IMG/VR virus record: IMGVR_UViG_3300025876_000079
Span: 1 to 30,807 of that record
Strand: one strand, 5' to 3'
DNA length: 30,807 nt
Source: a virus
The notes beneath the pieces are model-generated. The model worked only from the letters and a program-made list of their open reading frames with translations. It was not told the origin of the DNA and searched no databases. This document shows, piece by piece, positions 4,265-19,428 of this stretch (its first letter is position 1; each line of letters opens with the position of its first letter). A program made the position numbers and the translations under genes.

Positions 4265-5500
4265 TTATTTCATTGTCCATCTTGTAGGAGGGTTAAATCT
4301 TGTCTGAGTAGTTAATGGCTTTAAATAATCAATCATATAACCAAGTGCGTCATTCATATGATCGAAGCCATCTTCCTTATCAGGAATATTTGTATTCTCC
4401 TTGTATATTTGTCTTTGTAAACCTTTTATCAATGTTTTGCAAGAATGTGAAACAAAAATATGTCTTTCTCCATTAGAATCTTTTAGCTTACTATTCACAG
4501 CATTGACCCTATCTCTAATAGCTGGGTGTTTATGTTTAACTTTAACTTTAAAACCAGCATTCTGTAATATGCTTAAATCAGTTCTACCACCAGCAGAAGT
4601 TTTTCTTTGTTTAGAAGCTGGGTCAGGATATATGATTATTGGAATCTTTGTGCCATATCTATCTCTTAATTCTTGCACCATTTCATCTGTATTACTTCCA
4701 TAAATAATAACTTCATCAAGAAAGTATATTTTATCTTTCTCTAATTGTGCAACACAAGCTGACATTGGGTCTACGTTAAAGTCCATACCAATATGTAAAG
4801 GTTTCTCCCAATCAATCTTTTTTTTAACTACATTCTCAACAGGGTGGAAATTATAATAAACAGAACCAGCATAATTCTCAAATGTACCCTCAAACTCTTG
4901 TCTAAAAGTTCTAATATCAATATCTTGTTTAGCCTGTTCTATTTCATCTGCTGACACCATACCACCCTCAATAGTAGTATATTGGTAGCTATCCCATTCA
5001 TTATCTTGCTTCCCTTTTAAATACATTTCATAAGACCAGTTACCATAGCCTTTTGGTGTACCACACATAAGAACTTTCCCTAAAGTATCAGCAACAGAAG
5101 CACGTAATACTTCAAACCATGCTCGTTTATCTATGTCAGCAAACTCATCTAAAATTAAAAAGTCTAATCCACTACCTCTTAATGAGTCATAATTATCAGC
5201 ACCCTTTAATGAGATTGTACTATTGGATTGTCTTATTGTGATAGTCATGCTTGTTTCGTTTATATCTTCTATCCAGTTAAACTGATTAAGCATTTCTTTT
5301 AGATTAGCCCATACGATTTCTTTAGCCATCTTAAAGGTAGGTGCAACATACCATATCTTTTGTTTAGGCTTTGTTGCGTACTTCATCATCTCGGTAATAC
5401 ATAGATAAGTTTTACCAAATCTTCGACCACTTATAAGAACTCTAAACCTTGCTTGACTAGATGATACTTTAAGTTGGGGTTTTGTCAGAGATATTTTCAT
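4265..5500 (-). CDS. terL: Terminase large subunit (ATPase and nuclease)
   Basis: 411 residues, the motor that cuts and pumps phage DNA into the procapsid through the portal. Visible motifs: Walker A SGRRFGKT (24-31), Walker B DFLILDEF (113-120) with the catalytic Glu, coupling motif CGTP (146-149), and an RNase H-type nuclease domain with acidic residues in GMDFNVDP (D240), YPDPAS (D293) and HMNDALGY (D384). Length fits the family. The start at 5500 overlaps the preceding small gene by 32 nt and has no obvious Shine-Dalgarno sequence, so it may depend on coupling. The candidate small subunit is some 3.5 kb upstream rather than adjacent. Confidence 0.95.
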   Translation of the reverse strand: MKISLTKPQLKVSSSQARFRVLISGRRFGKTYLCITEMMKYATKPKQKIWYVAPTFKMAKEIVWANLKEMLNQFNWIEDINETSMTITIRQSNSTISLKGADNYDSLRGSGLDFLILDEFADIDKRAWFEVLRASVADTLGKVLMCGTPKGYGNWSYEMYLKGKQDNEWDSYQYTTIEGGMVSADEIEQAKQDIDIRTFRQEFEGTFENYAGSVYYNFHPVENVVKKKIDWEKPLHIGMDFNVDPMSACVAQLEKDKIYFLDEVIIYGSNTDEMVQELRDRYGTKIPIIIYPDPASKQRKTSAGGRTDLSILQNAGFKVKVKHKHPAIRDRVNAVNSKLKDSNGERHIFVSHSCKTLIKGLQRQIYKENTNIPDKEDGFDHMNDALGYMIDYLKPLTTQTRFNPPTRWTMK

Positions 5501-5690
5501 TACAGAAATAAGTGATATAGAGTTTATCCTTATTTATTTTTTCTTCCTGTTTTTGTGCATATTCAATAGTTAATTGACTTCCAGCTATAACACATTCAGA
5601 CCATTTATTAAATTGATGATCTATGGTCATAGTAGTATTACAAAAGCCTGTAATTGCAGAGCAGATACTAAAGGCTAATATATAGTGCAT
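5469..5690 (-). CDS. Small cysteine-containing protein, probably exported
   Basis: 73 residues. The first 17 residues (MHYILAFSICSAITGFC) are hydrophobic and could be a signal sequence or a short membrane anchor. Cysteines lie at 9, 17, 33 and 63, and a motif W(S)ECVIAGSQ follows. I recall similar short Cys-containing proteins with a WxxCxxxG core from pelagiphage-like genomes, always unnamed. Its ATG overlaps the stop of the upstream membrane gene as TAATG, and its end overlaps the large terminase start by 32 nt. Function unknown; an envelope location is inferred from the hydrophobic start and paired cysteines. Confidence 0.65.
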   Translation of the reverse strand: MHYILAFSICSAITGFCNTTMTIDHQFNKWSECVIAGSQLTIEYAQKQEEKINKDKLYITYFCNENISDKTPT

Positions 5691-5962
5691 TATTGAAGTG
5701 GGTTTTTATTGTTTTCTTTAATCTCTAATATTTCTAGTTTTAATACTTCAATTTCTTTTTGCATTATAGCAATCTCTTTATCTTGATCTATTATTGCAAA
5801 TCCATTTGTTTCTATTCCTGATAAATCAGGTGCAGTTGCATTTGATAATTGTTCTATTGTAGATTCCATCTTAGCAAACTTTGTAAATCCAGCACCAATA
5901 GATGCTATAAGACCTAATATTACAACTATGTTTGTAAGATTATCTTGTATTTTTTTAATCAT
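5690..5962 (-). CDS. Single-pass membrane protein with coiled coil
   Basis: 90 residues: a short basic N-terminus (MIKKIQ), one membrane segment (about 10-28, TNIVVILGLIASIGAGFTKF), and a long charged helix (about 55-90, IDQDKEIAIMQKEIEVLKLE) that should form a coiled coil. A clear binding site (AGGAGTTAAAAA) precedes the ATG, and the start overlaps the end of the Glu-rich gene by 8 nt. The architecture is like an inner-membrane spanin or a membrane-anchored adaptor, but it is far from the endolysin, so a spanin role is only a guess. Part of a run of membrane or exported proteins at 5469-7925. Confidence 0.7.
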   Translation of the reverse strand: MIKKIQDNLTNIVVILGLIASIGAGFTKFAKMESTIEQLSNATAPDLSGIETNGFAIIDQDKEIAIMQKEIEVLKLEILEIKENNKNPLQ

Positions 5963-7250
5963 TTTTTAACTCCTGTAATTCTAAAAGTAATATTCTTTTG
6001 TTATACTTTATTTCGTTTAATTTTTTAATCTTAATCTCCATTATATCATTAGCAGTATATTCTACCAAATCAACATTAGTATATATAGACCTATTATCAA
6101 ATATCTCGATCTGATTCAAATAAATATCTTTAGGTTTATAAAATTCGTTATTATTATAAACAGATAATGATGCTTGGTCATTCTGCATAGCATCTAATTT
6201 TATGATATTTTTAATCTGTAAATTCTTGGCATTATCTTTTATCTGTTCATCTACTTTTGCCATAATCTTGTCTATTTTAGGTTTCTTTGTTTTCTTCTTT
6301 GCTACTTTTGTTTTAATCTCTTTTTCAGGTGCTTCTTCAGTAGATTCTTCGACCATTTCTTCCTCTTGTATTTCTTCTTCTTTTTCCTCAACAGCTTCTT
6401 CAGGCATTTCTTCAATTATCTCTGCTGTCATTTCCTCTTTAGCTTCTTCCATAATTTCTTCGGTAATTATTTCTTCTTCTGGCTTTTCCTCAATCATAGT
6501 TTCTTCCATAACCTCTGGTTTTTCCTCTATGATTTCTAATTCTTTTTCTGGCATAGATACAATCTGAATAGATTCTTCTACTTCAAATATTTCTTCTATT
6601 TTAGGTTCTTCTTTAATTTCAAATGTAAATTCTTCTTCAATTTTAATATTTTCTTCTGGTTCAAAATCAGTAAATAAATTTATTAATTCTTGTTCTACAG
6701 TTTCATTAATATCAGGAACATAAGTATAATTAACAATTATACTAGGTTCTTTAAGATCAGCCCCATAATGTCCTGTAGTATTAGGCACAGAAAAATCATA
6801 TCTTAAAACAACATCATAATCTTGTACTGTATTATTTCCAAATATCATTGTATCGGTCATATCTTCGTAAGCACAACCATTAAATGTATCACAAGTTCCT
6901 GAGATAGTCCTATTCTGTGTTGTAAGATTTCCATTATCATCTGTTACTTTGATAGATTGTGTAACAGATTGTGAATTGCTATTCCAAAACCATATTTTAG
7001 ATGAGCCTGTTATTTCAAAGCCATTGTTTAATGAGTTTTTATTTACATTAGAATCATTCAAAGAAACACTATCTGATTCTATATATTCATTATTAACTCC
7101 AGCGATAACTCCACTACCATGTGTAGTATCTATGTTTGTTCCTGACCAACCACTTGTAAAATCTTGTGAAACTAAATTACTTGTTGTTTCTGCTTTTGAA
7201 GTTGTAAGGGTTAATATCATCAACAAAACGATTGATACGATATACTGCAT
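5955..7250 (-). CDS. Secreted protein with long Glu-rich segment
   Basis: 431 residues. Residues 1-20 form a standard Sec signal peptide with likely cleavage after SKA. Residues 21-185 look like a beta-rich domain (Asn/Ser/Thr rich, two cysteines at 120 and 126). Residues about 197-310 are a low-complexity acidic stretch dominated by Glu with Ile, Pro and Met. A basic patch KKKTKKPK (318-325) and a charged helical C-terminus follow. The start at 7250 fits AGGAG 9 nt upstream. No known enzyme motif is visible. The antisense frame at 6202-6567 is a Ser/Ile-rich shadow of the Glu codons. The acidic segment suggests a spacer or cation-binding region in the periplasm. Function unknown. Confidence 0.72.
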   Translation of the reverse strand: MQYIVSIVLLMILTLTTSKAETTSNLVSQDFTSGWSGTNIDTTHGSGVIAGVNNEYIESDSVSLNDSNVNKNSLNNGFEITGSSKIWFWNSNSQSVTQSIKVTDDNGNLTTQNRTISGTCDTFNGCAYEDMTDTMIFGNNTVQDYDVVLRYDFSVPNTTGHYGADLKEPSIIVNYTYVPDINETVEQELINLFTDFEPEENIKIEEEFTFEIKEEPKIEEIFEVEESIQIVSMPEKELEIIEEKPEVMEETMIEEKPEEEIITEEIMEEAKEEMTAEIIEEMPEEAVEEKEEEIQEEEMVEESTEEAPEKEIKTKVAKKKTKKPKIDKIMAKVDEQIKDNAKNLQIKNIIKLDAMQNDQASLSVYNNNEFYKPKDIYLNQIEIFDNRSIYTNVDLVEYTANDIMEIKIKKLNEIKYNKRILLLELQELKND

Positions 7251-7287
7251 ATGCCATAACTCCTATAAAAATTACTAACCAAATCAT
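7177..7287 (-). CDS. Tiny membrane protein overlapping the Glu-rich gene
   Basis: A 36-residue frame from ATG at 7287 to TAA at 7177. It begins MIWLVIFIGVMAYAVYRINR, a membrane segment followed by a charged tail (FVDDINPYNFKSRNNK). Its ATG overlaps the stop of the upstream secreted gene as ATGA, the coupling seen throughout this genome. Its last 74 nt overlap the signal-peptide region of the next gene in another frame. The N-out/C-in topology and function are unknown. The coupling and sensible membrane-protein composition support it; the overlap and size keep confidence moderate. Confidence 0.5.
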   Translation of the reverse strand: MIWLVIFIGVMAYAVYRINRFVDDINPYNFKSRNNK

Positions 7288-7925
7288 TTTGTATTAGTCC
7301 AATTAACTGGTTTTTTCTTTGGTAAAATTATTTGTTCTTTTTCTAATTTTGCATCTATCTTTTCTCTTTTCTTAATTCGTTTTACATAAGTTTCATAATC
7401 TGGTCTTTCATGGTCATACTTATTCCATAATGCTAAGGCATCTTTTCCAATCTTGCCATCTATCGGACAAGGTGTTCCAGCATTAATCATAGCTTCAAAG
7501 ACTCTTTCGTCTTGGCATAATAAAGCAACAGAGCCTACTTTCATTCCAAAGTCATATAATACTTTAGCTAATTTAATTCTTTCACAGTTCATATCTCTAT
7601 TAGTCTTACCACCTGAAAAACCTGTGCCAAATGTTTGAATACCTACTGATACTCCTGTTGCACAAACGTCTTGCGATTGAGCAGAGAATGATGGTGCAGA
7701 AGCTGTTGGTGGTGCTGATTTAATATTAGAATGATTAGTAGAGTTTGATGTAGTATTTGATGATGAGCCTGATTGGTAAGTCGTTGTTGCATTTGATGTA
7801 TAACCACCATCAATCATAGTGTTTGAGCCTGATGTATTATTTTGCGTTTCATCAGGATATGCTGGTTCTAACAAAGTTAGAAGAAACATAAGAATAATTA
7901 AAACTCCTGTAAAATAATAGTTCAT
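7284..7925 (-). CDS. Secreted or membrane-anchored four-cysteine protein of marine phages
   Basis: 213 residues from the ATG at 7925, chosen because GAGGA lies 8 nt upstream; an in-frame ATG at 7940 would overlap the previous stop as ATGA. Residues 5-22 are a signal sequence or anchor. Residues 30-85 are Ser/Thr/Asn-rich and probably disordered. A conserved-looking domain (about 86-170) contains cysteines at 88, 114, 137 and 153 (QDVCATG, NCERIKLAK, LLCQDERVFEAM, TPCP). The C-terminus is Lys rich. I recognise this pattern from uncultured pelagiphage-type genomes, where it is never assigned a function. Disulfides would suit the periplasm. Confidence 0.75.
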   Translation of the reverse strand: MNYYFTGVLIILMFLLTLLEPAYPDETQNNTSGSNTMIDGGYTSNATTTYQSGSSSNTTSNSTNHSNIKSAPPTASAPSFSAQSQDVCATGVSVGIQTFGTGFSGGKTNRDMNCERIKLAKVLYDFGMKVGSVALLCQDERVFEAMINAGTPCPIDGKIGKDALALWNKYDHERPDYETYVKRIKKREKIDAKLEKEQIILPKKKPVNWTNTK

Positions 7926-7936
7926 ATTGTTTATCC

Positions 7937-8101
7937 TCATTTAGCAACTTTACCTTTGTTAATACCTTTTTTAATAACATATTGTTGAGTACCATTAGCA
8001 CCTGATTCTACTTCTTTTTTAAGAAATTGAAATAGTTTCATTTCTTTTAGTTTCTTTTCAGTATGTTTTTTAAACGATTCTATTACTTTGTTATCTCTCA
8101 T
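7937..8101 (-). CDS. Small basic protein, unknown
   Basis: 54 residues from ATG at 8101 to TGA at 7937: MRDNKVIESFKKHTEKKLKE and onward, ending in a Lys/Gly-rich tail (KKGINKGKVAK). AAGGAAAAAGAA gives a ribosome binding site, and the ATG overlaps the preceding stop as ATGA. It is helical and positively charged, with no recognisable domain. It belongs to a string of short basic genes (7937-8961) that are mutually coupled. Nucleic acid binding is plausible from charge alone; no more can be said. Confidence 0.7.
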   Translation of the reverse strand: MRDNKVIESFKKHTEKKLKEMKLFQFLKKEVESGANGTQQYVIKKGINKGKVAK

Positions 8102-8193
8102 TTCTTTTTCCTTTTTTTAGGTGCATCTGAAATAAACTTATCAAAGAAGTTATCTAGCATCTCAAAGAATCTATATAAAAATCTATCAATCAT
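8098..8193 (-). CDS. Very short amphipathic protein
   Basis: 31 residues (MIDRFLYRFFEMLDNFFDKF, then ISDAPKKRKKK) from ATG at 8193 to TGA at 8098. It is linked by ATGA overlaps at both ends (8190-8193 and 8098-8101), which is the main evidence that it is translated. The Phe-rich amphipathic helix with a poly-basic tail would fit membrane-surface or nucleic acid binding. Function unknown. Confidence 0.6.
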   Translation of the reverse strand: MIDRFLYRFFEMLDNFFDKFISDAPKKRKKK

Positions 8194-8462
8194 ATCTTGA
8201 ATCCTTTTTTCCATGATTGTATTGCCCAATATGCTGGACTTAAATTCTTCTGGCCTTTTACTTTAGCTAATATGGGTCTGAATCTAGCAAAGAAACTCTT
8301 TTGCCTAGCTGGAATATTCTTCTTGATAGACATAGTTTTAGAGCCAAAATTAACTTTCTTAACTCTACCTGTACTTCTATCTTTTACGAATACCTTAAAC
8401 TTCTTAACATCTCCACGCATGGGTTTGTTAAGTTTTACAGTTCTGTTTTTATATTTAGCCAT
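8190..8462 (-). CDS. Conserved small basic phage protein (KLNKPMRGDVKKFKVFVK type)
   Basis: 90 residues, strongly basic. The N-terminal half (VKLNKPMRGDVKKFKVFVKD, then KVNFGS and IKKNIPARQKSFFARF) is a sequence I recognise as a widespread small protein of marine and other tailed phages, generally left without function. The usual family continues with a Cys-containing RARHNC-type C-terminus; here that part is replaced by FRPILAKVKGQKNLSPAYWA, which keeps the YW ending but lacks the cysteines. The ATG follows a spaced gap from the zinc-binding gene; its end overlaps the next gene as ATGA. Confidence 0.8.
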   Translation of the reverse strand: MAKYKNRTVKLNKPMRGDVKKFKVFVKDRSTGRVKKVNFGSKTMSIKKNIPARQKSFFARFRPILAKVKGQKNLSPAYWAIQSWKKGFKI

Positions 8463-8482
8463 GTGGCATAAATATCACAAAA

Positions 8483-8692
8483 CTATCTTTGAAAGAACCT
8501 TTTTCTCCAATCGTGGCAAACATAAGTATCTTTAACACCTTTACTTCCCCACCTACCACAGAAGCTACGTCTATTAGAATATAAACCACAGTTCCCACAG
8601 GCCTCTTTAGTCAAACTCTTTTTAAATGATTGAGGTAATGAATAATCTATTATCTCTCCATTCGGATAAAAATTACTTCTTTTTATTTCCAT
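8483..8692 (-). CDS. Small zinc-binding-type protein (four cysteines)
   Basis: 69 residues. A compact cysteine motif C32-G-N-C35, then C45 (SFCGRW) and C59 (TYVCHDWRKR), is the pattern of small phage zinc or iron-sulfur mini-domains (CGNC...C...C.W). A good binding site (GGAG 7 nt upstream) precedes ATG 8692. The start overlaps the end of the coiled-coil gene by 20 nt. Role unknown; DNA or protein binding is possible. Confidence 0.75.
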   Translation of the reverse strand: MEIKRSNFYPNGEIIDYSLPQSFKKSLTKEACGNCGLYSNRRSFCGRWGSKGVKDTYVCHDWRKRFFQR

Positions 8693-8822
8693 TTATTAAC
8701 TCCACTATTTTATTAAGTTTTCTTAATGCCATATCTCTTTGTATTTTAACTTGTTCTAATTCTTCTTTGAGTCTTAATTTTTCTTCTCTTAATTTAAGAA
8801 AAGTATTCTCTCCTATATTCAT
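8673..8822 (-). CDS. Short coiled-coil protein
   Basis: 49 residues from ATG 8822 (MNIGENTFLKL...). I chose this start because GGGAGATAAT lies immediately upstream, while an upstream in-frame ATG at 8906 lies inside another gene. The body is a continuous charged heptad helix (LREEKLRLKEELEQVKIQRD, then MALRKLNKIVELI). Probably an oligomerising adaptor; no family recognised. Confidence 0.68.
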   Translation of the reverse strand: MNIGENTFLKLREEKLRLKEELEQVKIQRDMALRKLNKIVELINGNKKK

Positions 8823-8823
8823 A

Positions 8824-8961
8824 TTATCTCCCTTGTCCTTTATACCTTGTTTGTTTTTGTTGTCGTTTTTCTTGTTTGTTTTTATTCTTCTTATGTTTCC
8901 CAGCACCTCTTTTAGCTGGTTTATCTCTTGGAATAAAGTGTGTAAATTTTTGTTTAGCCAT
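8824..8961 (-). CDS. Conserved tiny basic protein (HFIPRDKPAKR type)
   Basis: 45 residues from ATG 8961 to TAA 8824: MAKQKFTHFIPRDKPAKRGA, then a Lys/Arg/Gln-rich tail ending in a Gly-Gln-Gly-Arg. I recognise the FTHFIPRDKPAKR...KRHKK pattern as a recurrent tiny protein next to terminase genes in marine phages, without known function. The ATG lies within the last codons of the candidate small terminase gene (8-nt overlap). Highly basic, so DNA binding is plausible. Confidence 0.78.
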   Translation of the reverse strand: MAKQKFTHFIPRDKPAKRGAGKHKKNKNKQEKRQQKQTRYKGQGR

Positions 8962-9340
8962 CTATATCTTCTGCTTTAGCTTCTATGATTAATGGTAATG
9001 GTTCAACAGTAGATGTAGTGTGAACTCTATCTTGCATACCAAGTTCTTGTTTAGATAACCAAATAAGTAGTTTATCGTTACCTTGTCCTCTCATAGCTTT
9101 AGACCATAATTTTTTTCTAAGTGAACTTCTACCAATGTTTTTATTATCCTGTATTAGATCGGCATATCGTCTTTGTAGTGTTCTAGCAGATATTCCAACA
9201 ACAGCACCTATTTCTTCTTGTGTGCAACCTATCTGACTAAGTTTTGCAATAACATCTTCATCTAGGTCTTTCTTGGGTCGTCCTATAGATTGTGTCTTAA
9301 TTGTGTCATTTGTCTTATTTATGTCGTTTTTCATTTCCAT
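8954..9340 (-). CDS. terS: Candidate terminase small subunit (HTH DNA-binding)
   Basis: 128 residues. A helix-turn-helix occupies about 20-60 (GRPKKDLDEDVIAKLSQIGC, then TQEEIGAVVGISARTLQRRY), followed by a helical C-terminal region with the SSLRKKLWSKAMRGQGNDKL and IWLSKQELGMQDR pattern. This combination (recognition helix, then 'LR..LW..A..G......WL.K..LG..D') is typical of marine phage proteins annotated as small terminases, which bind the packaging site and regulate the large subunit. It is not adjacent to terL, so assignment is by sequence pattern. No clear Shine-Dalgarno precedes ATG 9340; the alternative Met3 has none either. Confidence 0.7.
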   Translation of the reverse strand: MEMKNDINKTNDTIKTQSIGRPKKDLDEDVIAKLSQIGCTQEEIGAVVGISARTLQRRYADLIQDNKNIGRSSLRKKLWSKAMRGQGNDKLLIWLSKQELGMQDRVHTTSTVEPLPLIIEAKAEDIDG

Positions 9341-10504: not shown

Positions 10505-10830
10505 TATATCTCTCCCTTATGTTTGTTGTAAAAATTAAATAAGTCGTTTGCTTGTTCCATTTCTGCTACTCTTTTTTTTACTTCCTGTAATATGTTAGTT
10601 TCTTTTCCATACATATCTTCAAACTGTTGCTTACAGTTATGAATACTAAATTGTCCTTGATGATGGTCATAGCAAAGTGGAATGGTATCGTAGTGGCTTG
10701 ATCTTCTGCCTATTCCTAGCCCAATGGGACGTATGTGATGCACATTAGCTGGTCTTTGACATACCCAACACCCTAAACTGGCAACCTTGCTCATATGCTC
10801 TCTCTCGGCTTTTGTAGGTGGTTTTTTCAT
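10504..10830 (-). CDS. HNH-type nuclease (DUF968/Ref-like)
   Basis: 108 residues. A zinc-bound beta-beta-alpha metal site is visible: CWVC (21-24), VHHIRPIG with the catalytic-type His pair (31-32), and PLCYDHHQGQFSIHN (51-65) supplying further Cys/His ligands. This arrangement (CxxC...HHI...LC..HH..) matches the DUF968/Ref family of phage recombination-associated nucleases such as P1 Ref, which cut ssDNA at RecA filaments. Coupled by ATGA to the Mom-like gene upstream. It could act in recombination, replication-fork processing or host DNA breakdown. Confidence 0.75.
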   Translation of the reverse strand: MKKPPTKAEREHMSKVASLGCWVCQRPANVHHIRPIGLGIGRRSSHYDTIPLCYDHHQGQFSIHNCKQQFEDMYGKETNILQEVKKRVAEMEQANDLFNFYNKHKGEI

Positions 10831-11483
10831 ATTAGCAATCCTTGTGTTTGAATATCAGTATCAGTTAAATAATTCTTATTATTAAATTTAGGATATTTTG
10901 ATATTGGGTATTTTAATTTATTGATAAGTGTTTTTTTATCTTTTTTATTACCAATAAAATAAATGTATCTATGTTTTCTAGGTCTATCTATTACTTCAAA
11001 TTTATCAGGATTATTTTTTCTTTCTTCCAAAGTGTATTGTTCGCAAATTGTTTTACTATGCTTATTAGTATTTTTCATTCTCCATTCAGTTCTTTTATCT
11101 GATAAGCCAGTATATATAAAATTAGTAGCCTGATAGATATACCCTGTATGATTTTGGCTAGTATCAGCATAAGAAACAATAATACTTGGTTTAGGTAGTT
11201 GTTTAAAAGAATTAGATACTAAAAAAGATGCTTCATTTTTAATATTGTTTTTTAATACTAACCTATTTAACTCTAAAACTATTTTTTTATAATCATCTCC
11301 AGCAATTCCTCTACATAATGATGAAGAAGCTGGAGAACCATAAGTAACTACTCCAACAAGTTCATTTTCTAGATAAAGACCAAATGAATAAGATATACTT
11401 GGCATACGTTTTGCATAATGAATATCTAAAATAAAAGGTTTAGTTTCATTATAGGAAATGCGTAAAACCTGATAATTATTCAT
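10827..11483 (-). CDS. Mom-like DNA adenine modification protein
   Basis: 218 residues. The pattern HYAKRMPS (22-29), a GNAT-like strand ENELVGVVTYGSPASSSL (39-56), ELNRLVL (71-77), and VSYADTSQNHTGYIYQATNF (103-122) followed by IYTG and EWRM is what I know from Mom family proteins, including Mu Mom, which convert adenine to N6-methylcarbamoyl adenine and protect phage DNA from restriction enzymes. The C-terminus (RKHRYIYFIGNKKDKK, about 168-183) is also typical of marine Mom-like proteins. No Com-type translational activator is visible next to it; the following HNH gene has zinc ligands but is a nuclease type. Recognition is from memory, not search. Confidence 0.8.
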   Translation of the reverse strand: MNNYQVLRISYNETKPFILDIHYAKRMPSISYSFGLYLENELVGVVTYGSPASSSLCRGIAGDDYKKIVLELNRLVLKNNIKNEASFLVSNSFKQLPKPSIIVSYADTSQNHTGYIYQATNFIYTGLSDKRTEWRMKNTNKHSKTICEQYTLEERKNNPDKFEVIDRPRKHRYIYFIGNKKDKKTLINKLKYPISKYPKFNNKNYLTDTDIQTQGLLI

Positions 11484-13568: not shown

Positions 13569-13880
13569 ATGAAAAACATACTTTTAATTGCCATCTTTGT
13601 CTGCTTATTACAAGCCTGTAGCTATCGCCCAATTATTGATACTGCTGGAAGATCATCAGCTTCATTTAATGAAAGCCAATCTAAAGAAATAACTAATGAT
13701 ATAATGATTTGTAAAAATTTAGCTAAACAGCATACTAATACTTTAGTCGAGTCTTATAAAGTAGTTCATAATTTGTATTTAAGACCAAGCACTTTATGGC
13801 TTATGCCTAAAGCTGAATATACAAATAAAAAATTAGTTAAAAATTGTCTTTTGGGGAGAGGTCATAATGTTATTAACTAA
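13569..13880 (+). CDS. Phage lipoprotein (IIDTAGRS type)
   Basis: 103 residues with a lipoprotein signal: a short basic start (MKN), a hydrophobic stretch, and lipobox LQAC with Cys17 as lipidation site. The mature part begins SYRPIIDTAGRSSASFNESQ and contains a Cys pair (C48 and C94, in MICKNLAKQ and KNCLLGRGHNVIN). I recognise the YRPIIDTAG...C..LA......C...RGH.V pattern from marine phage lipoproteins of unknown role. Lipidated phage envelope proteins are often superinfection-exclusion factors or outer spanins; which applies here is not visible. GAGAGGAAA precedes the start at a long spacing. Confidence 0.75.
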   Translation: MKNILLIAIFVCLLQACSYRPIIDTAGRSSASFNESQSKEITNDIMICKNLAKQHTNTLVESYKVVHNLYLRPSTLWLMPKAEYTNKKLVKNCLLGRGHNVIN

Positions 13881-17018: not shown

Positions 17019-17384
17019 TTACTTCTTTTTGTTCCTGTTTAAAACCTTATCTGTCATTTTAGTTGAGAATGTTGCAGTAAATACAATAATAACTAAATAC
17101 CAAACACTATCAGGTAAATCATTTATAATTCTTACCCATTCTTCAAAGTTATCTCTAGTGCTTTCAAACCACCCTGTACTTAACATTGATATAAGCCAAA
17201 TCATTAATATTTCATCTTTCCAACTTTTATCTTGGCTTTTGATTCTAACTATATCTGTATCTTTAGCGGCTTCTATTTCTGCGGCTCTTATTGTTTTAAC
17301 TTTTTCAGCTTTGTGTTTGAAATGGTCAGTTACTTTACCAACTGCTAATTTTGTAAGTGGGTTATTTAATAAACTAAATATCAT
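17019..17384 (-). CDS. Holin-like membrane protein (Holin_3TMs type)
   Basis: 121 residues. The order is typical of the 3TM holin family: a glycine-poor N-terminal region, a charged helix (HKAEKVKTIRAAEIEAAKDT, about 24-43), the signature SWKDE (54-58), and then hydrophobic segments (about 59-72 and 93-108) separated by a FEEWVRIINDLPDSVWY loop. These proteins permeabilise the inner membrane for the endolysin. AGGTAATACTT is upstream of ATG 17384. It lies in the same operon as the M15 endolysin and the XhlA-like protein, though not adjacent to them. Confidence 0.75.
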   Translation of the reverse strand: MIFSLLNNPLTKLAVGKVTDHFKHKAEKVKTIRAAEIEAAKDTDIVRIKSQDKSWKDEILMIWLISMLSTGWFESTRDNFEEWVRIINDLPDSVWYLVIIVFTATFSTKMTDKVLNRNKKK

Positions 17385-18432: not shown

Positions 18433-18467
18433 ACCTATTTTTAGGTAATTGTAAAGGTTTAGACCTT
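18433..18467 (-). other. Two short stem-loops before the metallophosphoesterase gene
   Basis: ACCTA-TTTT-TAGGT (18433-18446) and AAGGT-TTAG-ACCTT (18454-18467), each with a perfect 5-bp stem, fill one of the few gaps in this operon. The second overlaps the stop codon of the preceding gene. They could tune translation of the next gene or process the message; the stems are short enough to be chance. Confidence 0.3.
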
Positions 18468-18650
18468 ATCTAACAAAGTAACTATGACATATGCCATAGC
18501 ACTAATTAAAGAGCCTGTGCAGATTAATAAAATCTTCTCTAATCTTTTTACTCTTTCTTCAATGATACTAATTTTTTGGTGTGTTAGTTTCTGCATTATT
18601 CTACAAAGTTTTTCATGTGATTCTATTTTTTGTAAAGCAGATTTAGTCAT
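18459..18650 (-). CDS. XhlA-like lysis-associated membrane protein
   Basis: 63 residues: a coiled-coil N-terminal part (KIESHEKLCRIMQKLTHQKI, then ISIIEERVKRLEKIL) and one C-terminal membrane helix (about 41-60, LLICTGSLISAMAYVIVTLL). This N-in/C-anchor design matches XhlA-type haemolysin/holin-associated proteins that work with holin and endolysin. It lies in the lysis region downstream of the endolysin. The start overlaps the previous stop as TAATG. Confidence 0.7.
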   Translation of the reverse strand: MTKSALQKIESHEKLCRIMQKLTHQKISIIEERVKRLEKILLICTGSLISAMAYVIVTLLDKV

Positions 18651-18942: not shown

Positions 18943-19428
18943 TTAGTTAGTTAGTTTTCCACCAGACCATTTTGCTTCTGGTAATCCATTAATATAATTC
19001 TTTCCATCAAATGTCAAAACTTGCTTTCTGTTTGAGTCTTGATTGAAGCTACAATGAACCCACCCTGAATTAGCACCCTCATCTTCTTTCCAATACTCTA
19101 AAATTAATTGGTCAAAGTCTGTATTGTTTTGAATCCATAAAGCTACTTCTAAATTACTTACACCAGCTATTTCAAAATCAACTGCTTGTCCTTTTGTATG
19201 TTGTGATGTTTTAGAAGAATTAATAGCTACACATAATTCCTCACTACGATAGCCAGATGTAACAATAATTGGTTTTTCAAACTTTGCTCTTACAGGCTCT
19301 AACACTCCATAGCATAAATCAGTAAGGTTTTTAATTTCTCCACTACCAGCTTTGTTTTTAATACCAAGCCTGATTGCAGTAGAGGACTTTTCAAATTCTT
19401 CTAATTTAAAATGTTTTGATAATTGCAT
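18943..19428 (-). CDS. Endolysin, peptidase M15 type
   Basis: 161 residues, a D-Ala-D-Ala/L-Ala-D-Glu type peptidase that cuts peptidoglycan peptides at lysis. Zinc ligands are visible: H77 and D84 in SQHTKGQAVDFE, and H125 in WVHCSF; the preceding SGYRSEELC (58-66) is the usual substrate-binding strand. The N-terminal LSKHFKLEEFEKSSTAIRLG is the M15_3 start. There is no signal peptide, so it needs a holin. AGGAGATAAT precedes ATG 19428. Confidence 0.92.
   Translation of the reverse strand: MQLSKHFKLEEFEKSSTAIRLGIKNKAGSGEIKNLTDLCYGVLEPVRAKFEKPIIVTSGYRSEELCVAINSSKTSQHTKGQAVDFEIAGVSNLEVALWIQNNTDFDQLILEYWKEDEGANSGWVHCSFNQDSNRKQVLTFDGKNYINGLPEAKWSGGKLTN

Follow-up and report, generated by a model that had tools for sequence, protein, structure and literature searches.

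A conserved set of exported and membrane proteins in marine phages: a probable, so far undescribed bridge of the host envelope at lysis

Spanins are proteins by which phages break the outer membrane of their hosts, and a working definition of them is available (PMC6139136), in which the criteria for both o-spanins and unimolecular spanins include a lipobox. In the phages surveyed in 2018, no spanin could be identified in about 13%, and 20 of these 91 phages came from marine cyanobacteria; how such spanin-less phages break the outer membrane is left open in that work (PMC6139136). Here I describe a group of small genes in a SAR11-type marine phage that resembles the spanins in its general layout, but in which the outer-membrane lipoprotein has no counterpart.

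The window, that is the whole stretch of DNA analysed here, is a 30.8 kb phage record with 55 genes. The first-pass annotation had reported five consecutive, coupled genes for envelope-type proteins, and all five open reading frames (labeled A to E) were found in place, on the minus strand (Table 1). A hydrophobic N-terminus, defined as a 12-residue N-terminal stretch with a mean hydropathy of at least 1.9 (a threshold chosen after the data had been seen), is present in 7 of the 55 window genes, and A–E account for five of the seven. By counting, the chance of such a run is about 3e-4, or about 2e-3 if the borderline gene E is left aside; the clustering of A–E is real, and not due to chance. 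The genes overlap throughout, by 4 nt between A and B, 74 nt (out of frame) between B and the start of C, 8 nt between C and D, 1 nt between D and E, and 32 nt between E and terL. For gene A the start is placed at the ATG at 7925, as used in the phage Baldr, while the longest open reading frame begins at 7940. The closest isolate match of the window gene A is in Pelagibacter phage HTVC202P, and the gene order round the module follows that of HTVC202P. The window also includes a Mom-like DNA modification gene.

Table 1. Positions of the genes discussed in the text (in the window, unless a locus is named).
Feature	Position	Strand	Description
terL	4265-5500	(-)	phrog_2, 2.7e-49; downstream neighbour of E
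gene E	5469-5690	(-)	four conserved Cys; phrog_19893; pelagiphage-wide family, not module-specific
gene D	5690-5962	(-)	predicted N-terminal transmembrane helix and coiled coil; C-terminal NPL motif
gene C	5955-7250	(-)	predicted signal peptide, lectin/CBM-like beta-sandwich, Glu-rich disordered linker; conserved helical C-terminus
gene B	7177-7287	(-)	36-aa predicted single-span membrane protein, INPYNF motif; optional member
gene A	7284-7925	(-)	predicted exported protein, four conserved Cys; phrog_20531, no known function
about six other small genes	7937-8961		
terS-like gene	8954-9340	(-)	phrog_309, 2.3e-6
Mom-like DNA modification gene	10827-11483	(-)	phrog_1384
lipoprotein gene	13569-13880	(+)	LLQAC lipobox (PROSITE-type pattern), clearest in the window
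holin candidate	17019-17384	(-)	same local profile as HTVC033P holin candidate gp49
small protein adjoining the endolysin	18459-18650	(-)	C-terminal membrane span
M15-type endolysin	18943-19428	(-)	phrog_894; about 11 kb from the module
Rz-like coil gene and lipoprotein gene	L211 5170-5914		overlapping; lipoprotein phrog_812
D homologue of CRP-207	L089 3292-3873		annotated (putative) lysozyme
D homologue of CRP-810	L099 7198-7620		annotated (putative) lysozyme
MKINEN-type pair	L093 5335-5879; L092 5469-6043; L100 5303-5880; L088 9836-10403		candidate two-gene envelope pair
DPITA-start protein	L204 10959-11429; L195 11022-11498; L258 10779-11261; L260 10829-11323		C-terminal membrane segment; L204 copy phrog_32327, no function

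The five genes had been said to interrupt the usual adjacency of terS and terL. They do lie between the two, but not alone, as about six more small genes share this interval. The location is also not odd in itself: in T7, the Rz/Rz1 genes (18.5/18.7) are located between the terminase genes, and in the sister phages HTVC112P and HTVC026P the same slot is occupied by other small membrane genes, plus E.

The N-terminus of protein A is signal-like; the protein further contains a low-complexity Ser/Thr stretch and a core in which four Cys (residues 93, 119, 142 and 158, in the numbering of the 218-aa open reading frame from 7940) are kept from pelagiphages to roseophages. AlphaFold2 models this core as a beta-hairpin plus helices, with core blocks mostly at pLDDT 81–94; a fold search against the PDB gave no match, nor was one found by sequence. 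In protein C, a beta-sandwich is confidently modeled at about residues 19–180, followed by a Glu-rich disordered linker (about residues 196–325) and a C-terminus predicted to be helical and charged. Foldseek matched the sandwich to Fbs1, the BC2L-C lectin, CBM16 and CBM22, with E values of about 1e-5 to 1e-3. As modeled, the N-domain of C has the beta-sandwich glycan-binding fold of carbohydrate-binding modules, and it may bind a glycan. Protein D, which is short in the window phage (90 aa), has the predicted layout of an i-spanin, with an N-terminal membrane segment and then a coiled coil, and would adopt a type II topology. Its C-terminal N, P and L are invariant across 15 diverse members. 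No functional family was matched by the module genes in Pfam, PHROGs, NCBIfam or PADLOC, and literature searches returned nothing on an A-C-D module, nor any virion proteomics of the phages that carry it. None of A, C, D and E had a meaningful counterpart in the PADLOC library, and the module does not appear to correspond to a known anti-phage defence system.

The association of these genes was examined in both directions. Among 115 divergent loci chosen through A, each with more than 3 kb of downstream sequence, 105 possess a same-strand open reading frame with an N-terminal membrane segment and a C-terminal NPL; NPL-ended frames are found on the same strand in 213 of 4153 cases, versus 6 of 3542 on the opposite strand. 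Conversely, in loci fetched through D, both A and C are present wherever there is enough upstream DNA (36/36), and C is present in all those with a shorter flank (62/62). Of 25 divergent loci, nearly all show the order A-(B)-C-D, with an occasional extra gene before D. In roseophages and their environmental relatives A and D are kept, and another exported protein stands in for C (A-X-D). Taken together, these comparisons point to a strict core module formed by A, C and D, which can be annotated as one module even if its exact role differs. The suggestion that clustered envelope proteins are inherited as a unit in unrelated phages holds for these three.

It does not extend to the whole cluster. 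Homologues of B occur in 65 of 91 loci, most of them close to the window type and two of them in HTVC023P and Mosig, and B is best described as an optional add-on. Gene E encodes 73 residues with four invariant Cys, and is present in 19 isolate records (two phages being counted twice), nearly all of them without A–D and some of them T7-like (HTVC011P, HTVC019P). E is therefore an independent pelagiphage family, and a separate neighbour of the module. The first-pass annotation had assigned signal sequences or membrane segments to all five proteins. Hydrophobic starts are indeed present in A–E, but export of E (hydropathy score 1.96) is doubtful, since invariant Cys10, Ser11 and Cys17 lie within or beside the hydrophobic start, an unusual arrangement if the signal is to be cleaved. 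A single five-gene unit is thus ruled out by the independent E and the optional B, and of the one assembly first proposed, an obligate A-C-D core is retained, with B facultative: independent occurrence, which would count against a common assembly, is observed for E and not for A, C and D.

A second recurring pair was noticed in pelagiphages, in which the gene for a single-span coil protein with an M-K-[IV]-[NS]-E-N start precedes one for a small Cys protein that begins with a hydrophobic stretch (MKINEN-type pair in Table 1). Mutual exclusion between this pair and the module was considered, and is ruled out by HTVC115P, which carries both.

The module is carried by HTVC202P, HTVC033P, which belongs to the HMO-2011 type (PMC9038755), Baldr, HTVC023P, HTVC115P, the T4-like Mosig, the roseophages CRP-207 and CRP-810, and an Autographiviridae member, and is thereby found on siphoviral, podoviral, Autographiviridae and T4-like backbones. 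Since it crosses these backbones independently of virion type, a role in the virion is unlikely, and the signal peptides of the module proteins also argue against it. In bacterial genome collections, matches were limited to scattered contigs of MAGs plus one single-cell genome, and I read these as viral contigs. Two annotation problems were encountered among the carriers. The D homologues of CRP-207 and CRP-810 are labeled as lysozymes (Table 1), which is probably a misannotation, the protein being a predicted single-span coiled coil ending in NPL; and record OQ414636.1 (L084/L337), named Baldr EXVC032P, bears the locus tags of EXVC031PHodr.

Near relatives of the window module differ in the N-domain of C. 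The window type is present in 30 of 77, and another type in the remaining 47, mostly one with the NFETGN...GWTT pattern, a third type being DNDTAF. In the 47 swapped relatives the C-terminus of C is 60–92%, and the core of A 86–99%, identical to the window. This pattern fits a domain that may be adapted to a glycan differing between hosts. It would suit an outer-membrane anchor, and a role in exclusion or masking just as well.

I then considered the genes that surround the module, with lysis-gene profiles run over 70 non-redundant loci. Lysozyme genes are concentrated near it: 25 of 27 lie within 3 kb (351 kb, or 51% of the sequence searched) and two at 3–8 kb (333 kb), for a binomial p of 5e-6, although three of the four lysozyme seeds came from module loci, the family itself being general. 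Capsid and exonuclease genes, used as controls, are not concentrated in this manner. Counts for holins and Rz are biased, the profiles having been seeded partly from module neighbours, and only 34 of the 70 loci have a recognisable lysis gene at a distance of 3 kb or less. In library scans the commonest neighbour family is the Phage_lysozyme/phrog_7 endolysin, and GTA-type holins and the phrog_812 Rz-like spanin are also seen. Examples are locus L206, with an endolysin and a holin downstream of D, HTVC023P, with an M15 peptidase immediately 3' of D, Mosig, where a GTA-type holin adjoins the module, and loci L204, L239 and L211, in which the phrog_812 Rz-like spanin lipoprotein is directly upstream of A. 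Position in a lysis cluster, which is among the criteria for spanins, is therefore seen in many relatives. In the window, 9–11 kb separate the module from the candidate holin and endolysin genes. The small protein next to the window endolysin has, by eye, the look of an XhlA-type holin accessory. In several loci, a protein with a DPITA start is conserved directly 3' of D (Table 1), and is a possible lysis partner.

A spanin-like complex was one of the roles first suggested for the cluster. The inner-membrane coil with periplasmic partners and the lysis neighbourhoods are in keeping with this idea, but a pattern search identified no lipobox in any module protein, and no canonical spanin is recognised by sequence. 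None of the A-C-D(-B) frames thus appears to be an o-spanin, and C does not look like a unimolecular spanin, as its predicted signal peptide is without lipobox and it has no C-terminal transmembrane segment. Because no protein possesses a lipobox, the module is not a spanin by the definition of PMC6139136. In Baldr, a complete phage with A-C-D, the pattern search gave no lipobox frame in any of the reading frames. That the window phage is likewise devoid of lipoproteins is ruled out by its LLQAC gene, and the absence stands for Baldr only. This lipoprotein (MKNILLIAIFVCLLQAC/SYRPIIDTAGR...) is conserved in the sister phages HTVC112P, HTVC111P, HTVC202P and HTVC026P. In L211, an Rz-like inner-membrane coil gene overlaps the phrog_812 lipoprotein gene, probably forming the canonical spanin pair of a T4-like marine phage. 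Since this pair is directly upstream of A, the module is not just a spanin substitute in L211; at most, it works like a spanin, or together with one.

With moderate confidence, I propose that A, C and D, with B as an option, form a periplasm-bridging complex of the lysis programme that disrupts or destabilises the outer membrane. D would be fixed in the inner membrane and project its coiled coil into the periplasm, and its invariant NPL tail would dock on a conserved partner. This is most likely A, since the two remain together in phages that have another protein in place of C. A may act as an exported, disulfide-stabilised adaptor, and C as an exported tether, whose swappable lectin-like domain would grip a host-variable envelope glycan, while its long acidic linker would span the distance and its conserved C-terminus would take part in the complex. 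Once the holin and endolysin have done their work, the bridge would break or destabilise the outer membrane in the manner of spanins, whether it substitutes for a canonical spanin or operates next to one. Points that weigh against this proposal are the missing lipobox, the Rz-like pair of L211, the remote holin and endolysin candidates of the window, the many loci without a recognisable lysis gene nearby and the shortness of the window D. A bridge of this kind, active at the lysis stage and directed at the outer membrane, is probably what the module provides. The broader claim, that A-C-D(-B) represents a third class of phage machine for disrupting the outer membrane, one that uses no lipoprotein and is built from an inner-membrane coil, an NPL tail on a disulfide adaptor and an interchangeable lectin anchor, and distributed across major marine phage groups, is put forward tentatively, and I regard it as doubtful.

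The same observations can be read in other ways. A could sense the state of the envelope, or superinfection, and control the holin through D, in the way that T4 RI acts on the holin T. A small exported domain with four Cys, the predicted type II single-span layout of D and the frequent adjacency of holin genes would all suit such a regulator of lysis timing, but the glycan-binding-like domain and long linker of C would be superfluous for such a switch, and no sequence match to the RI or T families was found; I regard this as unlikely. Just as unlikely, in my estimate, is a function in superinfection exclusion or surface remodelling, with C, displayed or periplasmic, masking a glycan receptor of the host while A and D anchor it. 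The lectin-like fold, and the exchange of the C N-domain between otherwise near-identical modules, are what this would predict; the link to lysis genes is not, and neither is the failure to match PADLOC, a weak test as that library covers host defences.

More improbable still is that the window phage has its canonical spanin elsewhere, with the LLQAC lipoprotein as the outer-membrane subunit and A-C-D serving another envelope role. It is a good lipoprotein, and kept in four sister phages, but its gene lies about 5.6 kb off, on the opposite strand and close to genes of regulation and recombination (an HTH regulator and an exonuclease), and no adjoining coiled-coil partner was noted. Finally, the cluster might be a mere neighbourhood, in which recombination at a hot spot next to terL has brought together small envelope genes that are not related to one another. 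The independent occurrence of E, and the other small membrane genes that fill the slot in sister phages, are of the kind expected from a hot spot, and this is the likely explanation for E and a possible one for B. For A-C-D it is contradicted by the presence of A and C with D in every suitable locus, and by an order conserved in unrelated genomes, so that as an account of the module I consider it very improbable.

The A-C-D module probably acts as a bridge across the host envelope at lysis, of a kind not described before. Its repeated occurrence next to lysis genes in phages that infect SAR11 and Roseobacter, which are among the most abundant marine bacteria, makes it a concrete and testable candidate for one route of outer-membrane breakage.

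Several known systems invite comparison. In phage ctXG6705 the corresponding gene is labeled TonB, and the acidic, proline-rich linker of C could likewise span the periplasm; C however matches no TonB domain of Pfam or NCBIfam, and has a predicted signal peptide. The curli (T8SS) modules of pelagiphages (PMC9599517, PMC9004378) are also multigene envelope modules common to podoviral and myoviral phages, with streamlined marine bacteria as hosts, but their genes are different, no curli family being matched in the module. The phrog_812 Rz-like spanin of T4-like marine phages is a lipoprotein, unrelated in sequence, and an added gene outside A-C-D. In unimolecular spanins of the T1 gp11 type (PMC6139136) a single product would bridge the periplasm, for which the long linker of C offers a parallel; C differs in that its signal is of the cleavable type and has no lipobox, and in lacking the C-terminal transmembrane segment. 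The two-component spanins (lambda Rz/Rz1; T7 gp18.5/18.7; PMC6139136) share with the module a predicted inner-membrane protein with a periplasmic coil, here D, overlapping genes and a lysis neighbourhood. In place of their outer-membrane lipoprotein, the module would have two non-lipidated exported partners, one of them lectin-like, and it can coexist with an Rz-like pair, as in L211.
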